From positions 1-23,120 of the IMG/VR virus record IMGVR_UViG_3300046028_002995: a stretch of DNA of 23,120 nt; one strand, written 5' to 3'. The notes below the pieces were generated by a model. The model searched no databases and was not told where the DNA came from. It worked only from the letters and a program-made list of their open reading frames with translations. Source of the DNA: a virus. Both the position numbers and the translations under genes were made by a program. Positions 2,287 through 21,976 of this stretch are shown piece after piece; within the stretch, counting starts at the first letter, position 1, and each line of letters begins with the position of its first letter.

Positions 2287-5200
2287 TTATAATAATTTAA
2301 TTTGTATAATAGTATCTTTAGTTTGAGTTTTAATCAGAATATTTTGCTGCATATTTTTTTCTATACAGACTACTTGTTGATTTACATGCACTAGATTATT
2401 ATTATCATTATTAACCACTAGTATTTTTAATTCATTACCATAATCTTTTCTAGCCAGAAGATCAGCAAGAAGAACAGAGCAAGAATTATTAGAGGATATA
2501 TGCGCATTAAGAACAACCGCAGTAGTAAGATTTTGGGTAGATATTACATTTACAGCAAGATGTTTAGATAATTTAATTCCAGTAGAGATATCACCCTGAG
2601 CAGATACATCAGCGATTAGCGTATCAGATAGAAGAACAATACCTGTATTTAATTGAGCTGCATTAGATACAATACAAGAGTCTTCAGCCCCAAGATATAT
2701 TTCAGTTGTTAATTCAGCCGAGGCAAGCGATTCAGCTGCAACATTAGCCTCTACAGTAATGCTAGTCGTAATAACCGGAACATAGAGAATAGCAGCATTT
2801 ACAATAAGCGTCTCAGATTCTAATACAATTTCCGGTAATATCAGATTACCTATACTACGGGAAATACCAATAGTTGCTGTATTTAAATATATTTCAGTTA
2901 TTAATTCAGGAGAAGATATACTAACATTGGAGATTATATTTACATCAAGCGGAATTTCAGTTAATAGATTTGAATTAGCCTGAACATCAATTACTACTGT
3001 ATCAGATAGAAGAACAATACCTGTGTTTAATTGAGCTGCATTTGATACAACACAAGAATCAATTGATTCAAGTTTAATATCGGTAACCAATGTACTAGCA
3101 TTAGCCGATGCAATATTATCTAGATTTGCATTAAGTGGTATTTGTGTTGTTAAGTCAGCAGAGATAGATGTTATATCAACTACTGAGCCAATAAGAACAA
3201 CACCTGTATTTAATTGAGCTGCATTTGATACAACACAAGAATCAATTGAGGCTAATTGGATATTGGTAACCAATGTACTAGCATTAGCCGATGCAATATT
3301 ATCTAGATTTGCATTAAGTGGTATTTGTGTTGTTAAGTTAGCATCAATTTCAGAAACATTGGTTATCGAACCAAGAAGAACAACACCTGTATTTAATTGA
3401 GCTGCATTAGATACAACACAAGAATCAATTGAGGCTAATTGGATATTGGTAAGTAGATTAGCCGTTGCACTTGTTACATCGGAAATATATGCATTTAATA
3501 CAACATTAGTAACTAATTCAGCAGGATTAATGGTTACTTGAGAAGTTACCGAACCAAGAAGAACAACACCTGTATTTAATTGAGCTGCATTTGATACAAC
3601 ACAAGAATCAATTGATTCAAGTTTAATATTGGTAAGTAAATTAGAAGTTGCAGAGGAAATACTTACTACATTACTTGTTGTGGTAATAGATGTTACTAAT
3701 CTAACAGGATTAATGGTTACTTGAGAAGCTACTGAACCAAGAAGAACAACGCCTGTATTTAATTGAGCTGCATTTGATACAACACAAGAATCAATTGATG
3801 CTAATTTAATTGCAGTTGATAATTCTGCAGTTGCCACCGAAGAATTTGTTATCTCACCGGCAATTGTTATGTTATTTGTAAGATTAGCCGTTACTACTGA
3901 AGAAACTTTTAAATTTCCACGTACTATTGACTGTACACTTAATTCTGCTTGATTAGAAACAATACATTGATCAATAGATGCTAATCTAATACGAGTTCTT
4001 AGTGCAGCAGAGCCAGTTGTATTAGCAATACTTGCAGCATTAAATAATACTCTAGTAAATAAATTACCCGATGCTGTTGATCTTGAGTATACAGTTACGG
4101 GTACTATTCTTCCTTGTGATATTGTACCATCAATACTTACTTGTAAATTTGCAGCAAGTTGTATTTGTGTAATTAAATTTGGAGAAGATATACTAGCTTC
4201 AGTAAATATAGAGCTATTTGCCAGAATACTAGTTGTAATATTTGATATAGTATTAGCAACTGTATTAGCAGAACCTCTAACAAGAATGCTGGTAGTTAAC
4301 CCAGAAGTTGTATTGGCAACTGTATTAGCAGAACCGATCGCAAGAATACTGGTAGTTAAACCAGAAGCTGTATTGGCAATTGTATTAGCAGAACCAATAG
4401 CAAGAATATTAGTAGTTAATTCAGAATTCGCTGATACTACATCCTCTATAGCCCCAAGAAGAACAATTCCGGTATTTAAATATGCTACATTAGATACAAT
4501 ACAAGTATCAATAGCCGCTAATTCAATGCTAGTTGTAATATCTGATATGGTATTAGCAACTGTATTAGCAGAACCAATCGCTAGAATACTAGTTGTTAAT
4601 CCAGAAGTTGTATTGGCAACTGTATTAGCAGAACCTCTAGCAAGAATACTGGTAGTTAAACCAGAAACTGTATTGGCAACTGTATTAGCAGAACCTCTAG
4701 CAAGAATACTTGTTTGAATGGTAGTTGCATTAGCAGAAACAATATCCGTTATCCCTGCGGCAACAGTAATACTAGTTGTTAACCCAGATATAGTATTAGC
4801 AATAGTGTTAGCAGAAACAACAGGAGTAATACTTGTTGTTAAACCAGAAGCTGTATTGGCAACTGTATTAGCCGAGCCAATTACAGTAATACTTGTCGTT
4901 AGAGCAGAATTGGCTGACGCTATATCTAGGGCAGAACCAAGAAGAACAATTCCGGTATTTAGATATGCAGCATTAGATACAATACAAGTATCAATGGAGT
5001 TTAACTCAATACTTGTTTGAATAGTAGTTGCATTAGCAGAAACAATATCTGTTATCTCTGCAGCAACAGTAATACTAGTTGTAATATTGGAATTAGCTGA
5101 TACTATTACATCAGAAATAGTTCCTGCTATTTTAATACTTGTTGTTAGACCAGAAACTGTATTTGCAATAGTATTTGCCGATGCAGTTGGTCTAATACTA

Positions 5201-5979
5201 GTTGTGATATCTGATGCAGTATTAGCAGCTGTATTAGCCGAGCCAATTACAGTAATACTTGTTGTTATATCGGAGTTAGCTGTTACTACATCTAGGGCAG
5301 AACCAAGAAGAACAATTCCGGTATTTAAATATGCAGCATTAGATACAATACAAGTATCAATGGAGTTTAACTCAATACTTGTTTGAATAGTAGTTGCAGC
5401 GGCAGAAGCAATATCTGTTATCTCTGCAGCAACAGTAATACTTGTTGTAATATCTGATACTGTATTTGCAACTGTATTTACAGAAGAACTTGCAGTGATA
5501 TTGGTTGTTATATCGGAATTAGCTGTTACTACATCTAGGGCAGAACCTAAAAGAACAATTCCAGTATTTAATTGAGCTTGATTAGAAACAATACATGAAT
5601 CTATTGCATTTAATTCAATAGAGGTATGTAGATCTGATATAGCTGTAGCTATATCGATTATAGAACTATTAACTTTAATTTCTGTGGCTAATTGCGCTCC
5701 ACTTGTTGCAAGCGCAGCTGCAGCTGCAGCCATAGTTATTTGGGTATTAATTGACGCTGTGCTCAATACAAGAATATCTGTAATAGATGCAGCTATTGTT
5801 ATATTTGTTGATAGTGGCGCAGTAATATTAGTTACCACAGCAACCGAAGAATTTAACGAAATTTGTGTTGTGAGACTAGCTGTCGATGAACTAAATGAGT
5901 TCAGCGAACAGTTAAAATTTTGTTCTCCTCCACCAGAAGAAGATATTGGATTAGAACCAATTGAATAAAATCCTAGCAT
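2287..5979 (-). CDS. Giant Ser/Thr/Ile/Ala-rich repeat protein, likely fibrous adhesin
   Basis: The protein is 1230 residues. The N-terminus (M-L-G-F-Y-S-I-G-S-N-P-I-S) resembles the short leader of many phage structural proteins. Residues of about 25-1160 are built from roughly 55 units of about 20 residues, such as GSANTVANTVSGLTTSILAR, with recurring L-x-T-x-I strands. A Cys-bearing variant (I-D-S-C-V-V-S-N then L-N-T-G-V-V-L-L) recurs 11 times, once degenerate. In the C-terminal half these form a strict 61-residue super-repeat. The last 67 residues are non-repetitive and carry a Cys. Low charge, few aromatics and a regular 20-residue period suggest a beta-solenoid or similar fibre (inference). 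Phage proteins with LTTxI repeats exist but, to my knowledge, lack a firm function. The SD is GAGAG before the ATG. It is divergent from the main fibre operon and shares its promoter gap. Confidence 0.75.
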   Translation of the reverse strand: MLGFYSIGSNPISSSGGGEQNFNCSLNSFSSSTASLTTQISLNSSVAVVTNITAPLSTNITIAASITDILVLSTASINTQITMAAAAAALATSGAQLATEIKVNSSIIDIATAISDLHTSIELNAIDSCIVSNQAQLNTGIVLLGSALDVVTANSDITTNITASSSVNTVANTVSDITTSITVAAEITDIASAAATTIQTSIELNSIDTCIVSNAAYLNTGIVLLGSALDVVTANSDITTSITVIGSANTAANTASDITTSIRPTASANTIANTVSGLTTSIKIAGTISDVIVSANSNITTSITVAAEITDIVSANATTIQTSIELNSIDTCIVSNAAYLNTGIVLLGSALDIASANSALTTSITVIGSANTVANTASGLTTSITPVVSANTIANTISGLTTSITVAAGITDIVSANATTIQTSILARGSANTVANTVSGLTTSILARGSANTVANTTSGLTTSILAIGSANTVANTISDITTSIELAAIDTCIVSNVAYLNTGIVLLGAIEDVVSANSELTTNILAIGSANTIANTASGLTTSILAIGSANTVANTTSGLTTSILVRGSANTVANTISNITTSILANSSIFTEASISSPNLITQIQLAANLQVSIDGTISQGRIVPVTVYSRSTASGNLFTRVLFNAASIANTTGSAALRTRIRLASIDQCIVSNQAELSVQSIVRGNLKVSSVVTANLTNNITIAGEITNSSVATAELSTAIKLASIDSCVVSNAAQLNTGVVLLGSVASQVTINPVRLVTSITTTSNVVSISSATSNLLTNIKLESIDSCVVSNAAQLNTGVVLLGSVTSQVTINPAELVTNVVLNAYISDVTSATANLLTNIQLASIDSCVVSNAAQLNTGVVLLGSITNVSEIDANLTTQIPLNANLDNIASANASTLVTNIQLASIDSCVVSNAAQLNTGVVLIGSVVDITSISADLTTQIPLNANLDNIASANASTLVTDIKLESIDSCVVSNAAQLNTGIVLLSDTVVIDVQANSNLLTEIPLDVNIISNVSISSPELITEIYLNTATIGISRSIGNLILPEIVLESETLIVNAAILYVPVITTSITVEANVAAESLASAELTTEIYLGAEDSCIVSNAAQLNTGIVLLSDTLIADVSAQGDISTGIKLSKHLAVNVISTQNLTTAVVLNAHISSNNSCSVLLADLLARKDYGNELKILVVNNDNNNLVHVNQQVVCIEKNMQQNILIKTQTKDTIIQIKLL
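3000..3840 (-). repeat. 183-bp direct super-repeats inside the repeat protein gene
   Basis: The string ACACAAGAATCAATTGA starts at 3050, 3233, 3416, 3599 and 3782, exactly 183 bases apart each time, which encodes the 61-residue super-repeat. The flanking 30-50 bases (the Cys cassette) are nearly identical between copies, while the intervening units vary. Copies 1 and 2 also share most of the next 70 bases. These are good substrates for slippage or recombination that would change fibre length in steps of 61 residues. Diverged cassettes occur at about 2670, 3970, 4500, 4980, 5350 and 5590. Confidence 0.85.
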
Positions 5980-14285: not shown

Positions 14286-15206
14286 ATGCCTTGTTTGTCA
14301 ACTATCGGTACTTCAAATATTAAAAGTTTTGGATTTACTCGAGCATTAGCTTCAATAATTCCATCCATTTTTTCTGTAAACTATCTTGTTGTTGCTGGAG
14401 GAGGTGGCGGCGGAGATCGTCATGGCGGTGGCGGTGGAGCAGGTGGGTTATTAGCGAATACAACTTCTAGTATTACTACTGGAGTTACATACACTATAAC
14501 AATAGGAGCCGGTGGAGCAGGAGGGAATTATGAAGCGTTAACTGGCGGAAGTGTTCAAGGGTCGGGAGCAGCTGGAGCAAATAGTTCTATAATAGGAACG
14601 GGTTTATCGATAATATCTCTACGCGGTGGTGGCGGAGCGACTTATGATGGATATGATAACATTACTTTAGTTGGTTCTGGCGGTGGTGGTGCTGGTAACG
14701 CATCCAATTATTTGGGGAAAGCAGGAACTTCTGGGCAAGGAAATGTCGGAGGAAATGGCAATGGCGGGAATGTTCAGGGCGGGGGTGGTGGCGGTGCCGG
14801 AGAAGCGGGTAAAAATTACGGGGTTGTTCTTGCCGCTACAGGTGGAGCTGGCGGCAATGGCGCAATTTCCCTTATAACAGGAACCTCTGTATATTATGCA
14901 GGAGGAGGCGGTGGTGCTTGTGCCTCCGGAGGCGATTATTCCGCAGGAGGTTTAGGTGGAGGCGGTAAAGGTTCATACGATACCGGAAATACTTCGGGAT
15001 CGCCTAATACCGGAGGTGGAGGTGGAGCTTCTAGATCTGCTGGAGGTACTTCGACCTTTGGTCAAAATGGAGGTTCTGGTGTAGTTATTATTAGTTACCC
15101 ATCTTCTTATCCTGACGCGATAGTTACCGGATCTCCAGTATATTCCGTTTCCGGAGGGAATAAAATATACAAATTTACTGGTTCTGGTTCAATTATATTT
15201 CAATAG
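14286..15206 (+). CDS. Glycine-rich tail-fibre adhesin
   Basis: The protein is 306 residues. A 30-residue N-terminal part is followed by Y-L-V-V-A-G-G-G-G-G-G and then a long polyglycine-patterned region (about 36-270) with repeated G-G-G-G-A-G, G-A-G-G and G-N-G runs. It ends S-G-V-V-I-I-S-Y-P and G-N-K-I-Y-K-F-T-G-S-G-S-I-I-F. This layout is the widespread phage glycine-rich adhesin domain, whose solved relatives (the Gp38-type tip of T-even-like phage S16) pack polyglycine II helices and expose variable loops for receptor contact. The equivalence is structural analogy, not proven homology. Base composition is locally G-rich because of glycine codons. A weak GGGA lies before the ATG. Confidence 0.85.
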   Translation: MPCLSTIGTSNIKSFGFTRALASIIPSIFSVNYLVVAGGGGGGDRHGGGGGAGGLLANTTSSITTGVTYTITIGAGGAGGNYEALTGGSVQGSGAAGANSSIIGTGLSIISLRGGGGATYDGYDNITLVGSGGGGAGNASNYLGKAGTSGQGNVGGNGNGGNVQGGGGGGAGEAGKNYGVVLAATGGAGGNGAISLITGTSVYYAGGGGGACASGGDYSAGGLGGGGKGSYDTGNTSGSPNTGGGGGASRSAGGTSTFGQNGGSGVVIISYPSSYPDAIVTGSPVYSVSGGNKIYKFTGSGSIIFQ

Positions 15207-17822: not shown

Positions 17823-18293
17823 ATGGCTATTAGTTTTAACCATGCTGCAAATACAATTACTGATTGTCAAATAAGTTCCATTGGTATAGGAACGGCTGCA
17901 TCCGGTACTGCAGGAGAAATACGAGCCACTAATAATATTACTGCGTATTATTCGGATGAAAGATTAAAAACTAATATTGTTAATATTACAAATGCGTTAG
18001 AAAAAATACTTCAATTAAACGGTGTAACATTTAACGCAAATGACCTTGCTGCTTCATTTGGATATACTAACCAATCACAGCAAGTTGGTATTATAGCTCA
18101 ACAAGTTGAAGCGGTTTTACCCCAAATCGTTGTACCTGCACCGTTTGATATTGGTAGAAATGAAGACGGTGATGAGTATTCAATAAGTGGTGAAAATTTC
18201 AAAACGGTTCAATATGAGAAATTAGTTCCGTTATTGATTGAAGCTATTAAAGAATTAACTATGGAAGTTAATAAATTAAAAGGTGTTAACTAA
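17823..18293 (+). CDS. Minimal fibre protein with S74 intramolecular chaperone domain
   Basis: The protein is 156 residues. From residue 44 it carries the peptidase S74 (endosialidase intramolecular chaperone) signature: S-D-E-R-L-K-T-N-I, then A-L-E-K-I-L-Q-L-N-G-V-T-F, then Q-V-G-I-I-A-Q-Q-V-E-A-V-L-P-Q-I-V, V-Q-Y-E-K-L-V-P-L-L-I-E-A-I-K-E-L and a coiled-coil end. In characterised members the domain trimerises, guides folding of the upstream beta-fibre, then cuts itself off at the Ser, with a Lys five residues on as catalytic partner; here Ser44 and Lys49 are both present. The matured fibre part would then be only 43 residues, which is very short for this family. AGGAG precedes the start, and the stop overlaps the next start as TAATG. 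Confidence 0.9.
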   Translation: MAISFNHAANTITDCQISSIGIGTAASGTAGEIRATNNITAYYSDERLKTNIVNITNALEKILQLNGVTFNANDLAASFGYTNQSQQVGIIAQQVEAVLPQIVVPAPFDIGRNEDGDEYSISGENFKTVQYEKLVPLLIEAIKELTMEVNKLKGVN

Positions 18294-19279
18294 TGAAAGA
18301 ATATACATGGGAAATATTATCGTTATATACAACACCATCTGTTGATAGTTTATCGAGTGTTGTTAAACGGGTTACATGGCGATATCAAGTTAAAGATGGG
18401 ACATACGTAGCTGACACATATAAAGAAACTTACTTTAATTCGGTTGATCCAAATAATTTTATTGACTATAATAACTTAACACCAGAAATTGTTTTTGGTT
18501 GGATATCTTCAGTTGAAAATATCGATACTATTAAATTAGAATTAGACGAAAAATTATTAGCTGTAAAAGCTCCTGTACTTGTAGAAAAAGAAATACCATG
18601 GGACCGCACTATCAATTATACAGGTACAGAACAATTTGTTCTTACGTTAAATGATGCTGTAGTATTAGGACCAATTAAATGGAATAGCGGAGATTTTAAT
18701 AAGGTATTAAATCAAAATGGTGCAAACGATATTTTACCTACAGATATTTTAGCTTATAAACAAGGTATCGTACCTGTAAATCAACCTTTAGTATTAACAG
18801 ACGCATTGAAAATATATCAAGTTAGTAATGTTGTTAATGATACAGGGTTTGATAATATTTTATTTGATGGTACTGATATTACGTGGGATTTAACATCAGG
18901 TAAAGCTGTTGGTACATATACACCAACATCAAAATCTATTAAACATATTAAAACAACTCTTAAGCAAAATTTAAGAAATAAAAATAATATATTAGAAGAT
19001 ACCCCAATAACCGTGGAAATAGATGGTACAGAATTTACTATTTCAGCTACCACTTGGGGGCGAATCTTTGTTATAACAAAGATTCTACGGTTAGCAGATG
19101 GTGAAAGTTGTAGTTGGTGGAACAACAAAGTAAAAACAACAGTAACGAAAGATCAGTTAAAGCAAATGTTGAATGCTATTGACGACTACATCGATTCGTT
19201 ATGGGATGATGAAATCCCAAAAATCGTAGAAATAGATAGTTGTGATACAGTTGCTAAATTAAAAATCATCGTTATTTAA
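18293..19279 (+). CDS. Phage structural protein, DUF7936-like N-terminus and DUF4376-like C-terminus
   Basis: The protein is 328 residues. The N-terminal about 95 residues (Y-T-W-E-I-L-S-L-Y-T-T-P-S-V-D-S-L-S-S-V, then V-T-W-R-Y-Q, then F-I-D-Y-N-N-L-T-P-E-I-V-F-G-W-I) match a small domain common in cyanophages and T4-like phages (DUF7936 by recollection). The C-terminal about 90 residues (I-x-V-E-I-D-G-T-E-F-T-I-S, then W-W-N-N-K-V-K-T-T-V-T-K-D-Q-L, then C-D-T-V-A-K-L) resemble DUF4376, a domain often attached to tail or fibre-assembly proteins. The middle (about 105-215) is unassigned. Its start overlaps the S74 gene stop. The role is unknown; position suggests fibre assembly or attachment. 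Confidence 0.75.
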   Translation: MKEYTWEILSLYTTPSVDSLSSVVKRVTWRYQVKDGTYVADTYKETYFNSVDPNNFIDYNNLTPEIVFGWISSVENIDTIKLELDEKLLAVKAPVLVEKEIPWDRTINYTGTEQFVLTLNDAVVLGPIKWNSGDFNKVLNQNGANDILPTDILAYKQGIVPVNQPLVLTDALKIYQVSNVVNDTGFDNILFDGTDITWDLTSGKAVGTYTPTSKSIKHIKTTLKQNLRNKNNILEDTPITVEIDGTEFTISATTWGRIFVITKILRLADGESCSWWNNKVKTTVTKDQLKQMLNAIDDYIDSLWDDEIPKIVEIDSCDTVAKLKIIVI

Positions 19280-19288
19280 GGTATCAAT

Positions 19289-20191
19289 ATGACATTACCT
19301 ACAGCGGGATCAGCAATATCCTTAAACCAAGTTAATGTTGAATTAGCTTTAACGGGTACCACGGCTATTCAAATGAATCAAACTAATGTACGTACATTGT
19401 TTGCAAAACCGAGCGGTGCAATTTCAATGAGTGATGGGCGCGGTAAGAGTAACAGCCCTACTGTTTCATCTATAGTGGTTTCTGGTACCACTAGTTATAA
19501 TTACGCTGGAGCGACTACCGCTACTTGGACCGTACTAATTACGTACACAAACGGTTCAACAAGCACTGATTGTACACTATTAACTTGGAGTCAATATACT
19601 GGTACCTACAACACTGGTACAACTGTTAATGTTCCACTAAAAACATTAGTTGTTACTACCGCTAACGTAAAACTGTCAACCACTGGTAATGTTGGTGGAG
19701 GTATCGGATATATTAAAGCTGTAAACACTTCTAATGGTGTAGCAGGGTATCTAAATGTAACATGGACCTGTCTACCATTAAAAACATTAATTACTATGAT
19801 GGACGGTACCCAAAAATCAATAGGATCTATTAAGGTCGGTGATATAGTTAAAGCTATTGACCCTAAAACTCAAATACGGTCCAACGAAAAAGTAACGTTT
19901 GTATTAGATACAAACACGTCATATAATTTAATAAAAATAACCTGTGAAGATAATATTATTTTAGAACCAACACCGGAACATGAAGTGTGGGTTAAACGCA
20001 ACGGTGTAACACTATGGTGCGAGTCAAAAGATGTATTGGTAGATGATGAATTATTAGCGGATAATTTAACCTATAAAAAAATACTTACGATTGAACAAGT
20101 TTGTTATCCAGAAGGTATTGAAGTAGGTAATATATCAGTTGCAAACGCAAAAGTATATTTTGCAGAACGTCTATTAATGCATAACACGTAA
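19289..20191 (+). CDS. Phage structural protein with C-terminal Hint (intein-like) domain
   Basis: The protein is 300 residues. Residues 1-60 (T-L-P-T-A-G-S-A-I-S-L-N-Q-V-N-V-E-L ... G-A-I-S-M-S-D-G-R-G-K-S) are a structural start common in marine phage tail proteins. A beta-rich domain of about 95 residues follows. At Cys161 a Hint domain begins: C-L-P-L-K-T-L-I-T-M-M-D-G (block A), T-P-E-H (block B TxxH), F-A-E-R-L-L-M-H-N ending at Asn299. The protein then ends with one Thr, the usual +1 residue of an intein. Hint domains shift the upstream peptide bond to a thioester and so allow splicing, cleavage or linkage to a nucleophile. There is no homing endonuclease insert (139-residue domain). 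The AAGGT ribosome site is good. The context, just before glycosyltransferase genes, is unusual. Confidence 0.85.
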   Translation: MTLPTAGSAISLNQVNVELALTGTTAIQMNQTNVRTLFAKPSGAISMSDGRGKSNSPTVSSIVVSGTTSYNYAGATTATWTVLITYTNGSTSTDCTLLTWSQYTGTYNTGTTVNVPLKTLVVTTANVKLSTTGNVGGGIGYIKAVNTSNGVAGYLNVTWTCLPLKTLITMMDGTQKSIGSIKVGDIVKAIDPKTQIRSNEKVTFVLDTNTSYNLIKITCEDNIILEPTPEHEVWVKRNGVTLWCESKDVLVDDELLADNLTYKKILTIEQVCYPEGIEVGNISVANAKVYFAERLLMHNT

Positions 20192-20193
20192 TC

Positions 20194-20751
20194 ATGTTTG
20201 ATATTATAGTACTATCTAGTTCTAATATGATAAATCATGTTTTAGATCAAACATTGAAAGCTAATACAAATTCATTTCATATCATAACACCATTTAATAA
20301 TACAAACACTGAACCTAGTGTAAAAATTACCGTTACTGATAAGCCTGAATTAGCTATAGAAAACCGTGTTGTATTAGTAATTACAAATGATTGTTATTTA
20401 CCTAAGTTTTGGGAAGTACAATTTTTACGCACTTTACAAATTGATACATCACAAGTTTTAGTTCCATGTTTTACCAATTCAAAATATCAAGAACAACAAT
20501 GTCCGTTATTTGAGACCTTTACTAATGGTATATACTTAGAAAAATTAGATTGGTATAATAGGTGTAGTAAACCTTCTATTAAACAAATATCAAATTGCTC
20601 TATCGATGCTAGTTTATTTGGGTATACTACATTCGTTGATACACCATTAGATGAACGTAATTGGAATGTATTACAGTCATGTATCATAGGTAATGGTAAA
20701 ATATTAGCTAAAGATACAAACAATTTTATAAACCTACTAGATTTAATATGA
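20194..20751 (+). CDS. Unidentified protein in glycosyltransferase operon, possibly a degenerate GT-A fold
   Basis: The protein is 185 residues and starts 2 bases after the Hint gene, with no clear ribosome-binding site, so coupling is likely. It opens with strand F-D-I-I-V-L-S-S-S-N. A middle strand V-V-L-V-I-T-N-D-C-Y-L-P lies where glycosyltransferases carry their DxD motif, here without a second Asp. The end (S-I-D-A-S-L-F-G ... P-L-D-E-R-N-W-N-V-L-Q-S-C-I-I-G-N-G-K-I) loosely follows the F-D-E-x-x-W-x-x-x-D of GT2 enzymes. I regard this as a weak structural hint, not an assignment. The stop shares ATGA with the next gene, a glycosyltransferase. Confidence 0.6.
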   Translation: MFDIIVLSSSNMINHVLDQTLKANTNSFHIITPFNNTNTEPSVKITVTDKPELAIENRVVLVITNDCYLPKFWEVQFLRTLQIDTSQVLVPCFTNSKYQEQQCPLFETFTNGIYLEKLDWYNRCSKPSIKQISNCSIDASLFGYTTFVDTPLDERNWNVLQSCIIGNGKILAKDTNNFINLLDLI

Positions 20752-21320
20752 TACAAGTTTGTATACCACATACAGGTGAAATAGATGCAAATTTAGTAGA
20801 ATGGCTAACTGATAATAATCATAAACCATTTTTGCAAAAAAGTTATTCTGTGTGTAAAGGTCGTAATCAACTTATGGAAAGATTCTTAAATGAATCAACT
20901 GCCGAGTGGTTATTCTATCTTGATTCTGATATGCATCCAGCAACTCCTGATCTATTTGAATTTGTAGAACAACAAACTGTTGATTGTTTATTTGTTCCTG
21001 GTATTACTAATAAACTAAAATGGAACATGTCGCTAGATACAACTGAACTATTAGAGTTAACAGAGTATACACCAAGTGGAAAGTATGAGTTAAAACAAAC
21101 TAATATATTTGGTGGTTCTGGTATATTGCTACATAGAAGATTAGTTGAAAAGTTACCTAAGAATATATGGCGTGAATCTAACAATAATATTACATCTGAA
21201 GATATCTTATTTGCATTTACATTGACGCAAACATATAATATCCCAGCGTATGTAATTTGGAATTCTGCATTACACCACTACAAGGGTGGGTTTGATTTGT
21301 ATTCGTTGGTTAATTTATGA
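20748..21320 (+). CDS. GT-A type glycosyltransferase
   Basis: The protein is 190 residues. The pattern is that of a small GT2-like enzyme: a conserved helix C-K-G-R-N-Q-L-M-E-R-F-L, then strand W-L-F-Y-L-D-S-D-M-H-P with the metal-binding DSD, then F-G-G-S-G-I-L-L-H-R-R, a catalytic-type S-E-D-I-L-F-A, and A-L-H-H-Y-K-G with the His that often completes metal coordination. These cytosolic enzymes transfer a sugar from a nucleotide donor; the acceptor cannot be read from the sequence. It is joined to both neighbours by ATGA overlaps. Such small phage glycosyltransferases modify phage DNA, phage proteins or host polysaccharides. Confidence 0.85.
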   Translation: MIQVCIPHTGEIDANLVEWLTDNNHKPFLQKSYSVCKGRNQLMERFLNESTAEWLFYLDSDMHPATPDLFEFVEQQTVDCLFVPGITNKLKWNMSLDTTELLELTEYTPSGKYELKQTNIFGGSGILLHRRLVEKLPKNIWRESNNNITSEDILFAFTLTQTYNIPAYVIWNSALHHYKGGFDLYSLVNL

Positions 21321-21976
21321 AAATATTAGTCGGCGCACCAGTGAATCAAACTACTGAAATTTTTGAACAGTATATTACAGCATTACGAGAAATGGAAGGT
21401 GATTTTGATTTATTCTTTATACTACATAATTCTCCGCATTTAAAACCATTGTTAAATGATAACGAGTATATAGAGTTTAACACTAGCACACTATATAAAC
21501 CGCATATATGGAATCCTAAGAATTTAAAAGAAGTTGGAATTATGCGTAATATGTTATTAAATTACGCAAAAGTTAATAACTACGATTATTTTTTAACATT
21601 TGATAGTGATCAGATTGCCCACCCTGATATGCTACAGCATCTACTATCATTAGATAAAGACATTGTTGGCGAAGTAATTTGGACTAAATGGAAATCTAGT
21701 GAAGAAGAGATGCCAAATGCATGGATGTCTGATTTTTATGAGTTTGGTAATTTTCCTATAGGACTATTTAGAACACCCGGATTGTACAAAGTTGGTATGA
21801 TCGGCGGGTGTTATTTAATTAAAAGAAACGTATTATTAGCTGGCGTTAATTATAATCCAATTTATAATTTATCTTGTACTACTTGGGAAGATAGAGCATT
21901 TTTCGTTAGAGCTGCAGTACATGGATTTGATTGTTATGTTGATACAACGTATCCAATAAAACATTTATATGATTAA
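21317..21976 (+). CDS. GT-A type glycosyltransferase, second of the pair
   Basis: The protein is 219 residues. It has M-K-I-L-V-G-A-P-V-N at the start, R-N-M-L-L-N-Y-A, then strand Y-F-L-T-F-D-S-D-Q-I-A-H-P with DSD, and V-G-M-I-G-G-C-Y-L-I-K-R near the acceptor site. At the end it has the diagnostic W-E-D-R-A-F-F-V-R-A-A-V-H-G-F-D-C-Y-V-D-T and P-I-K-H-L-Y-D. The E-D ... A-x-x-H-G-F ... V-D ... H-L-Y pattern is characteristic of phage-encoded enzymes of this fold. It overlaps the preceding gene as ATGA and ends directly before a strong terminator, so it is the last gene of the plus-strand operon. The sugar donor and acceptor are not known; it may act in sequence with the upstream enzyme. Confidence 0.88.
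   Translation: MKILVGAPVNQTTEIFEQYITALREMEGDFDLFFILHNSPHLKPLLNDNEYIEFNTSTLYKPHIWNPKNLKEVGIMRNMLLNYAKVNNYDYFLTFDSDQIAHPDMLQHLLSLDKDIVGEVIWTKWKSSEEEMPNAWMSDFYEFGNFPIGLFRTPGLYKVGMIGGCYLIKRNVLLAGVNYNPIYNLSCTTWEDRAFFVRAAVHGFDCYVDTTYPIKHLYD

Follow-up and report, generated by a model that had tools for sequence, protein, structure and literature searches.

The gene and its surroundings

The window, meaning the whole 23,120-nt stretch of DNA that we analyzed, corresponds to positions 1 to 23,120 of the IMG/VR virus record IMGVR_UViG_3300046028_002995. No RNA families or tRNAs were found in it. Its plus strand carries a gene whose product ends in a Hint domain, with the following features and neighbors:

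17823..18293, plus strand: 156-aa protein with an endosialidase chaperone domain (Peptidase_S74, E=3.7e-17), two genes upstream of the Hint gene
18293..19279, plus strand: 328-aa protein with an N-terminal DUF7936, immediately upstream of the Hint gene
19289..20191, plus strand: putative precursor gene, 300 aa and stop; putative fiber-tip adapter, variable beta domain and C-terminal Hint (ORF, Pfam, AF2 model)
19289..19453, plus strand: residues 1-55, the N-terminal module, modeled by AF2 with three short helices; matches phrog_26817/26746
19457..19768, plus strand: residues 57-160, the middle domain, modeled by AF2 as beta strands; evolves fast among close relatives
19769..20185, plus strand: Hint domain, residues 161-299 (Pfam, PDB sequence search, profile comparison, AF2 and Foldseek)
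19769..19771, plus strand: Cys161, the Hint Cys1 and block A nucleophile; codon TGT in all relatives
19970..19981, plus strand: block B T-P-E-H, residues 228-231 (alignment)
20123..20185, plus strand: residues 279-299, blocks F and G, with Asn281 at F:4, Lys288 at F:13 and a terminal His298-Asn299
20186..20188, plus strand: Thr300 (+1), the sole C-extein residue; Thr-Gly in relatives
20194..21976, plus strand: three small genes of 185, 190 and 219 aa downstream of the Hint gene, together in most relatives

A preliminary description of the gene had given these coordinates, a length of 300 residues before the stop codon and the motifs Cys161, T228-P-E-H231 and H298-N299 followed by Thr300, all of which proved correct.

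The neighboring genes are consistent with a fiber or baseplate region. They encode, in order, a baseplate-like Laminin-G protein, a glycine-rich protein, a fiber with YadA-head repeats, the S74 chaperone and the DUF7936 protein; wherever a relative has both genes on its contig, the DUF7936 gene immediately precedes the Hint gene. Of the three small genes downstream, the third resembles glycosyltransferases (Anp1, below cut-off at E=1.4e-5), the second has a very weak Anp1/Fringe match (E about 0.02) and the first has no usable match; together they could modify the fiber or the host surface. Elsewhere in the window, a Gly_rich_2 protein encoded at 14286-15206 (E=2.8e-23) is possibly a second tip adhesin of the same fiber region, and the minus strand carries at 2287-5979 a 1230-aa ORF with no Pfam match. 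In one relative (L006), the S74 region corresponding to 17823-18293 is part of a 601-aa protein.

The N-terminal module recurs in proteins of 58 other viral contigs, in none of which a Hint was detected by HMM. Several of these proteins belong to the Gp38 adhesins (PF05268) or to glycine-rich proteins (PF21722), and one (L079) matches Gp38 PF05268 above the Pfam cut-off (E=7.4e-8) as well as a phrog annotated as 'tail fiber protein; host specificity'. Gp38 of phage S16 docks on the fiber via three short N-terminal helices (PMC9608196), and the AF2 model of residues 1-55 also has three short helical turns, albeit at low confidence. Sequence families thus link the module to Gp38 proteins, and the likeness is confined to it: no match to the Gp38 (PF05268) receptor-binding region was found in the window protein, nor any match of the middle domain to Pfam. 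An HtrL_YibB match to the window protein fell below the Pfam cut-off and was dismissed. Based on the N-terminal module and the gene neighborhood, the window protein is probably a fiber-tip adhesin, which would place it in the virion and backs its earlier naming as a tail protein.

A Hint domain with intein-like and BIL-like traits

Searches against Hint families, as proposed in the preliminary description, confirmed an intein-like Hint at the end of the protein. With the single window protein as query, Pfam returned Hint under its curated cut-off (E=1.1e-5) and phmmer against the PDB matched the C-terminal Hint to 8w20 (E=3.9e-7). What settles the assignment is the hhalign alignment of the family profile to three phage inteins, which spans 135 columns from Cys1 to Asn139, every block included, with a probability of 98.8 and E=9.5e-17. 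The AF2 model agrees. Built from only seven close relatives it reached a pLDDT of 37, but an alignment of 43 rows gave a usable model with Hint values mostly >90. The modeled Hint superposes on the BIL domain 2lwy with a TM of 0.91 (target-length normalised; rmsd 1.9) and on the Hedgehog Hog domain 1at0 with a TM of 0.83, and Foldseek matched it to 6y75 at E=1.1e-10. In the PDB it is most similar to BIL domains (6y75, 2lwy), mini-inteins (gp41-1, DnaB) and Hedgehog 1at0, in that order, a ranking that is partly driven by the alignment because the Hint rows among the 43 are mostly BIL-like; a sequence profile built from the same rows retrieves the same PDB set.

The domain has the fold, the block A Cys/Ser and the block B T..H that define the HINT superfamily, as well as the residue set of class 1 inteins (Cys/Ser at position 1, T and H in block B, C-terminal HN and Cys/Ser/Thr at +1). 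Class 1 inteins are placed inside conserved host proteins with functional exteins, whereas here the C-extein has 1-2 residues and the host is a variable adhesin. Nor does any member carry the F:4 Asp and F:13 His of that class. Block F departs from textbook inteins in having Asn281 at F:4 and Lys288 rather than His at F:13 in all members, and either substitution could retard the C-terminal step. Helicase inteins of Vibrio phages also have Asn at F:4. Among inteins, Asp at F:4 and His at F:13 are common but not universal, and some do without the latter (PMC4031507). Like A-type BILs, the family has a C-terminal His-Asn in the Hint of a non-conserved protein, but its +1 residue is Thr throughout rather than a non-nucleophilic one. 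The HN sets it apart from B-type BILs, which have no C-terminal intein motif. Hog domains lack HN and are followed by a sterol-recognition region, and the window protein ends at residue 300 directly after HN-Thr. In sequence, the family resembles BILs in block F and inteins in its +1 residue.

Selection at the junction and predicted self-processing

Scans of IMG/VR identified eight other viral contigs with the gene, one of which (L002) encodes a protein identical to that of the window. Neither the window gene nor any of the relatives departs from Cys161, TPEH, HN and the +1 Thr. The one-residue C-extein described earlier stands for the window, which ends in HN-Thr; the more divergent relatives end in HN-Thr-Gly and so carry two. 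A codon comparison of the relatives revealed almost exclusively synonymous variation in the last 22 codons of the gene, and the codons of His231, His298, Asn299 and Thr300 have synonymous changes only (ACG/ACA/ACT at +1, for example). Blocks F and G are under the strongest purifying selection in the gene (pN 0-0.04 versus pS 0.43-0.78); by contrast, pN reaches 0.37 in the middle domain. The C-terminal junction, with its HN-Thr invariant in the protein while the codons drift synonymously, is thus under selection, an indication that the C-terminal step is used.

These patterns also bear on two readings in which the Hint is never removed. One is a domesticated or dying mini-intein that lost its C-extein and is retained, functionless, by hitch-hiking. 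Its fold and core residues are intein-like, and helicase and terminase inteins are among the nearest annotated phage matches. Yet the synonymous-only changes at the junction and the presence of Thr300 in all relatives argue against decay, as do the recurrence of near-C-terminal Hints on unrelated viral proteins and the absence of an empty allele: we found no copy of the same middle domain without a Hint, and all eight of the other contigs in which the middle domain is complete have one. (The remaining middle-domain match is 50 residues inside a 1300-aa RCC1-like protein.) We regard this reading as improbable. The other is an unprocessed Hint that stays in the virion as a structural or binding part of the fiber tip. 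The altered block F (Asn281, Lys288) could indeed weaken processing, yet a purely structural role does not need purifying selection on all of the core catalytic residues, and we give it little credence.

A Hint that has Cys161, block B, HN and Thr300 is predicted by standard Hint chemistry to be removed. Considering the observed domain architecture, fold, catalytic residues and junction selection, we infer, as a reading with somewhat better than even chances, that the tip adhesin is made as a precursor whose C-terminal Hint removes itself by splicing or double cleavage. Residues 1-55 would dock the adhesin on the fiber, like the module carrying Gp38-type adhesins in other phages, and the fast-varying beta part (residues 57-160) would form the C-terminal portion of the mature protein. 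After folding, the BIL/intein-type Hint (residues 161-299), until then a temporary C-terminal cap, would excise itself, starting with an N-S acyl shift at Thr160/Cys161. In the splicing route, transfer to Thr300 and cyclization of Asn299 would yield adhesin-Thr (adhesin-Thr-Gly in relatives). In the double-cleavage route, thioester hydrolysis and Asn cyclization would yield the free adhesin. Either way, the mature adhesin would have 160-162 residues and the 139-residue Hint would be discarded. In BIL domains, which as a rule have no +1 nucleophile, cleavage prevails, yet one mutation was enough to make them splice efficiently (PMC7664689). A +1 Thr that occurs naturally is therefore compatible with splicing. 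The two routes are indistinguishable by sequence because the C-extein is too short for a clearly different product. The preliminary description held that ordinary splicing would make no useful product. On the contrary, a 160-residue adhesin would be set free by either route, which is plausible as a maturation step.

That description favored a Hedgehog-like outcome, in which a thioester at Cys161 would transfer the adhesin C-terminus to an outside nucleophile (a lipid, amine, sugar or virion protein) and HN-Thr would be secondary. The N-terminal thioester chemistry that it proposed is possible, as Cys161, Thr228 and His231 are invariant; the superposition of 1at0 and the glycosyltransferase-like genes downstream also agree with a transfer. 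The preferred outcome itself found no specific support. Hog domains use the first acyl shift only (PMC7664689) and so would have no need of an HN-Thr end, yet HN-Thr is under strong purifying selection here, and the Hint is not followed by a sterol-recognition or other acceptor-binding region. We consider such a transfer unlikely. Self-processing can be tested directly in this family, whose protein is small (300 aa), complete and expressible, with an intact splice junction and a probable place at the fiber tip. If processing occurs, protein engineering would also gain a natural substrate whose C-extein is a single residue.

Hint mosaicism and comparison with known systems

Four relatives carry, in frame after the stop of the Hint gene, an 81-aa ORF with a second Hint C-half (TPEH to HN-Thr) and no block A:

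L004, 6919-7164: second Hint C-half
L007, 4430-4675: second Hint C-half
L008, 2739-2984: second Hint C-half
L009, 4430-4675: second Hint C-half

The last 20 codons of the C-half differ synonymously among copies and the rest is almost identical. The 3′ end of the window gene shares 30/30 bases in one block with the L007 C-half copy and 27/30 with the L007 gene; all of its last 27 bases are shared with the C-half copy, as opposed to 23 with the gene. Between L008 and L012, pS is 0.06 in residues 226-278 but 0.52-0.53 on both flanks. This recombination-like mosaicism, from region counts read by eye, suggests homologous exchange across the Hint. The conserved Hint DNA could provide a homologous end for the exchange of tip variants. 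A bolder reading, which we think doubtful, is that phages equip tip adhesins with the self-removing Hint as a swappable 3′ cassette, splicing onto Thr(-Gly) erasing the Hint so that new tips end cleanly. The separate C-half with its TPEH and HN-Thr could instead point to a reaction in trans, with this half or the Hint itself joining the tip adhesin to a second protein. Such a reaction is very improbable: the C-half has neither block A nor a C-extein partner, is absent from the window, L006 and L012, and in its upstream part varies among copies at just four codons.

C-terminal Hints are a known kind of domain in phages and are numerous at the ends of phage proteins in metagenomes, and a viral structure library also holds many Hint proteins from uncultured phages. 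In our viral survey, several unrelated viral proteins had a Hint near the C-terminus that ends in HN and is trailed by 4-11 residues (+1 residue E, K, R or P among those listed, as in A-type BILs). Most near-C-terminal Hints of the survey lack His at F:13, as does the window family. In a tree, the family adjoins the C-terminal Hints of L127 and L128, a placement that is weakly supported (80/84) and flagged for long branches. These two are viral proteins of ~910 aa (L127 190-2913; L128 1715-4456) whose C-terminal two thirds are tandem Hints, each ending in His-Asn, with very short linkers (four in L128, counted by eye). In 11 other contigs (L154, L165, L167, L168, L170, L171, L174, L177, L180, L187 and L191), a Hint ending in HN is followed by two residues and a second Hint (HN-KG-CF...). 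A scan of viral-contig DNA for one motif spelling of the end (...NG-hhh-HN-[T/S/C]-TAA) gave six matches, none in a Hint protein, and none of the 12 Hints in a scan of bacterial and archaeal genomes, all of other subtypes, had a terminal HN. We found no paper in the open literature on the function of such terminal Hint domains in phages. What is unusual in the window family is where the Hint sits and that its final junction is intact; the combination of HN-Thr(-Gly)-stop with a Gp38-type docking module was seen only here.

Among known systems, A-type BILs (Clostridium thermocellum 2lwy; Tetrahymena BUBL1 BIL2, 6y75/6tmm) are the best structural and profile matches and share the C-terminal His-Asn and an F:13 residue other than His. 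Unlike them, as they have no nucleophilic +1 (PMC7664689), the window family always has a +1 Thr and stops 1-2 residues past the Asn. It resembles phage class 1 mini-inteins (the helicases of Vibrio phages K453 and 13VV501A; the ME3 terminase) in Cys1, block B TxxH, HN, +1 nucleophile and size. Those mini-inteins lie inside conserved enzymes and have long C-exteins, whereas the window Hint, with its F:13 Lys, is at the C-terminus of a variable adhesin. With Hog it shares the fold (1at0) and the residues for a Cys-based N-S shift, and differs in having a conserved HN-Thr and no sterol-recognition region. A C-terminal Hint on a tail or virion protein, as in the window, is also found in Achromobacter phages 2-1 and JWF, Providencia phage PSTNGR1 and phrog_38766 ('virion structural protein'). 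The Achromobacter and Providencia Hints end in ...VNGYL... without His-Asn, and the phrog_38766 matches (L158 and L192) have Lys or Pro after HN, unlike the Thr of the window family. In the Achromobacter phage fiber protein (L021 2083-3525; L025 2077-3528), a CNCDCNCSC-like stretch precedes the C-terminal Hint, and the gene lies two genes ahead of a radical SAM/sulfatase-maturase-like gene. Our results support the earlier view of an intein-like or BIL-like Hint that serves a phage tail-fiber protein. Peptidase_S74 chaperones are conserved C-terminal domains that sever themselves from variable phage fibers. Their fold and chemistry are unrelated to those of the window Hint, and the likeness would be one of a self-cutting C-terminal domain. 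If processing occurs, phage fibers would have, in addition to the S74 chaperone, another kind of C-terminal domain that removes itself.
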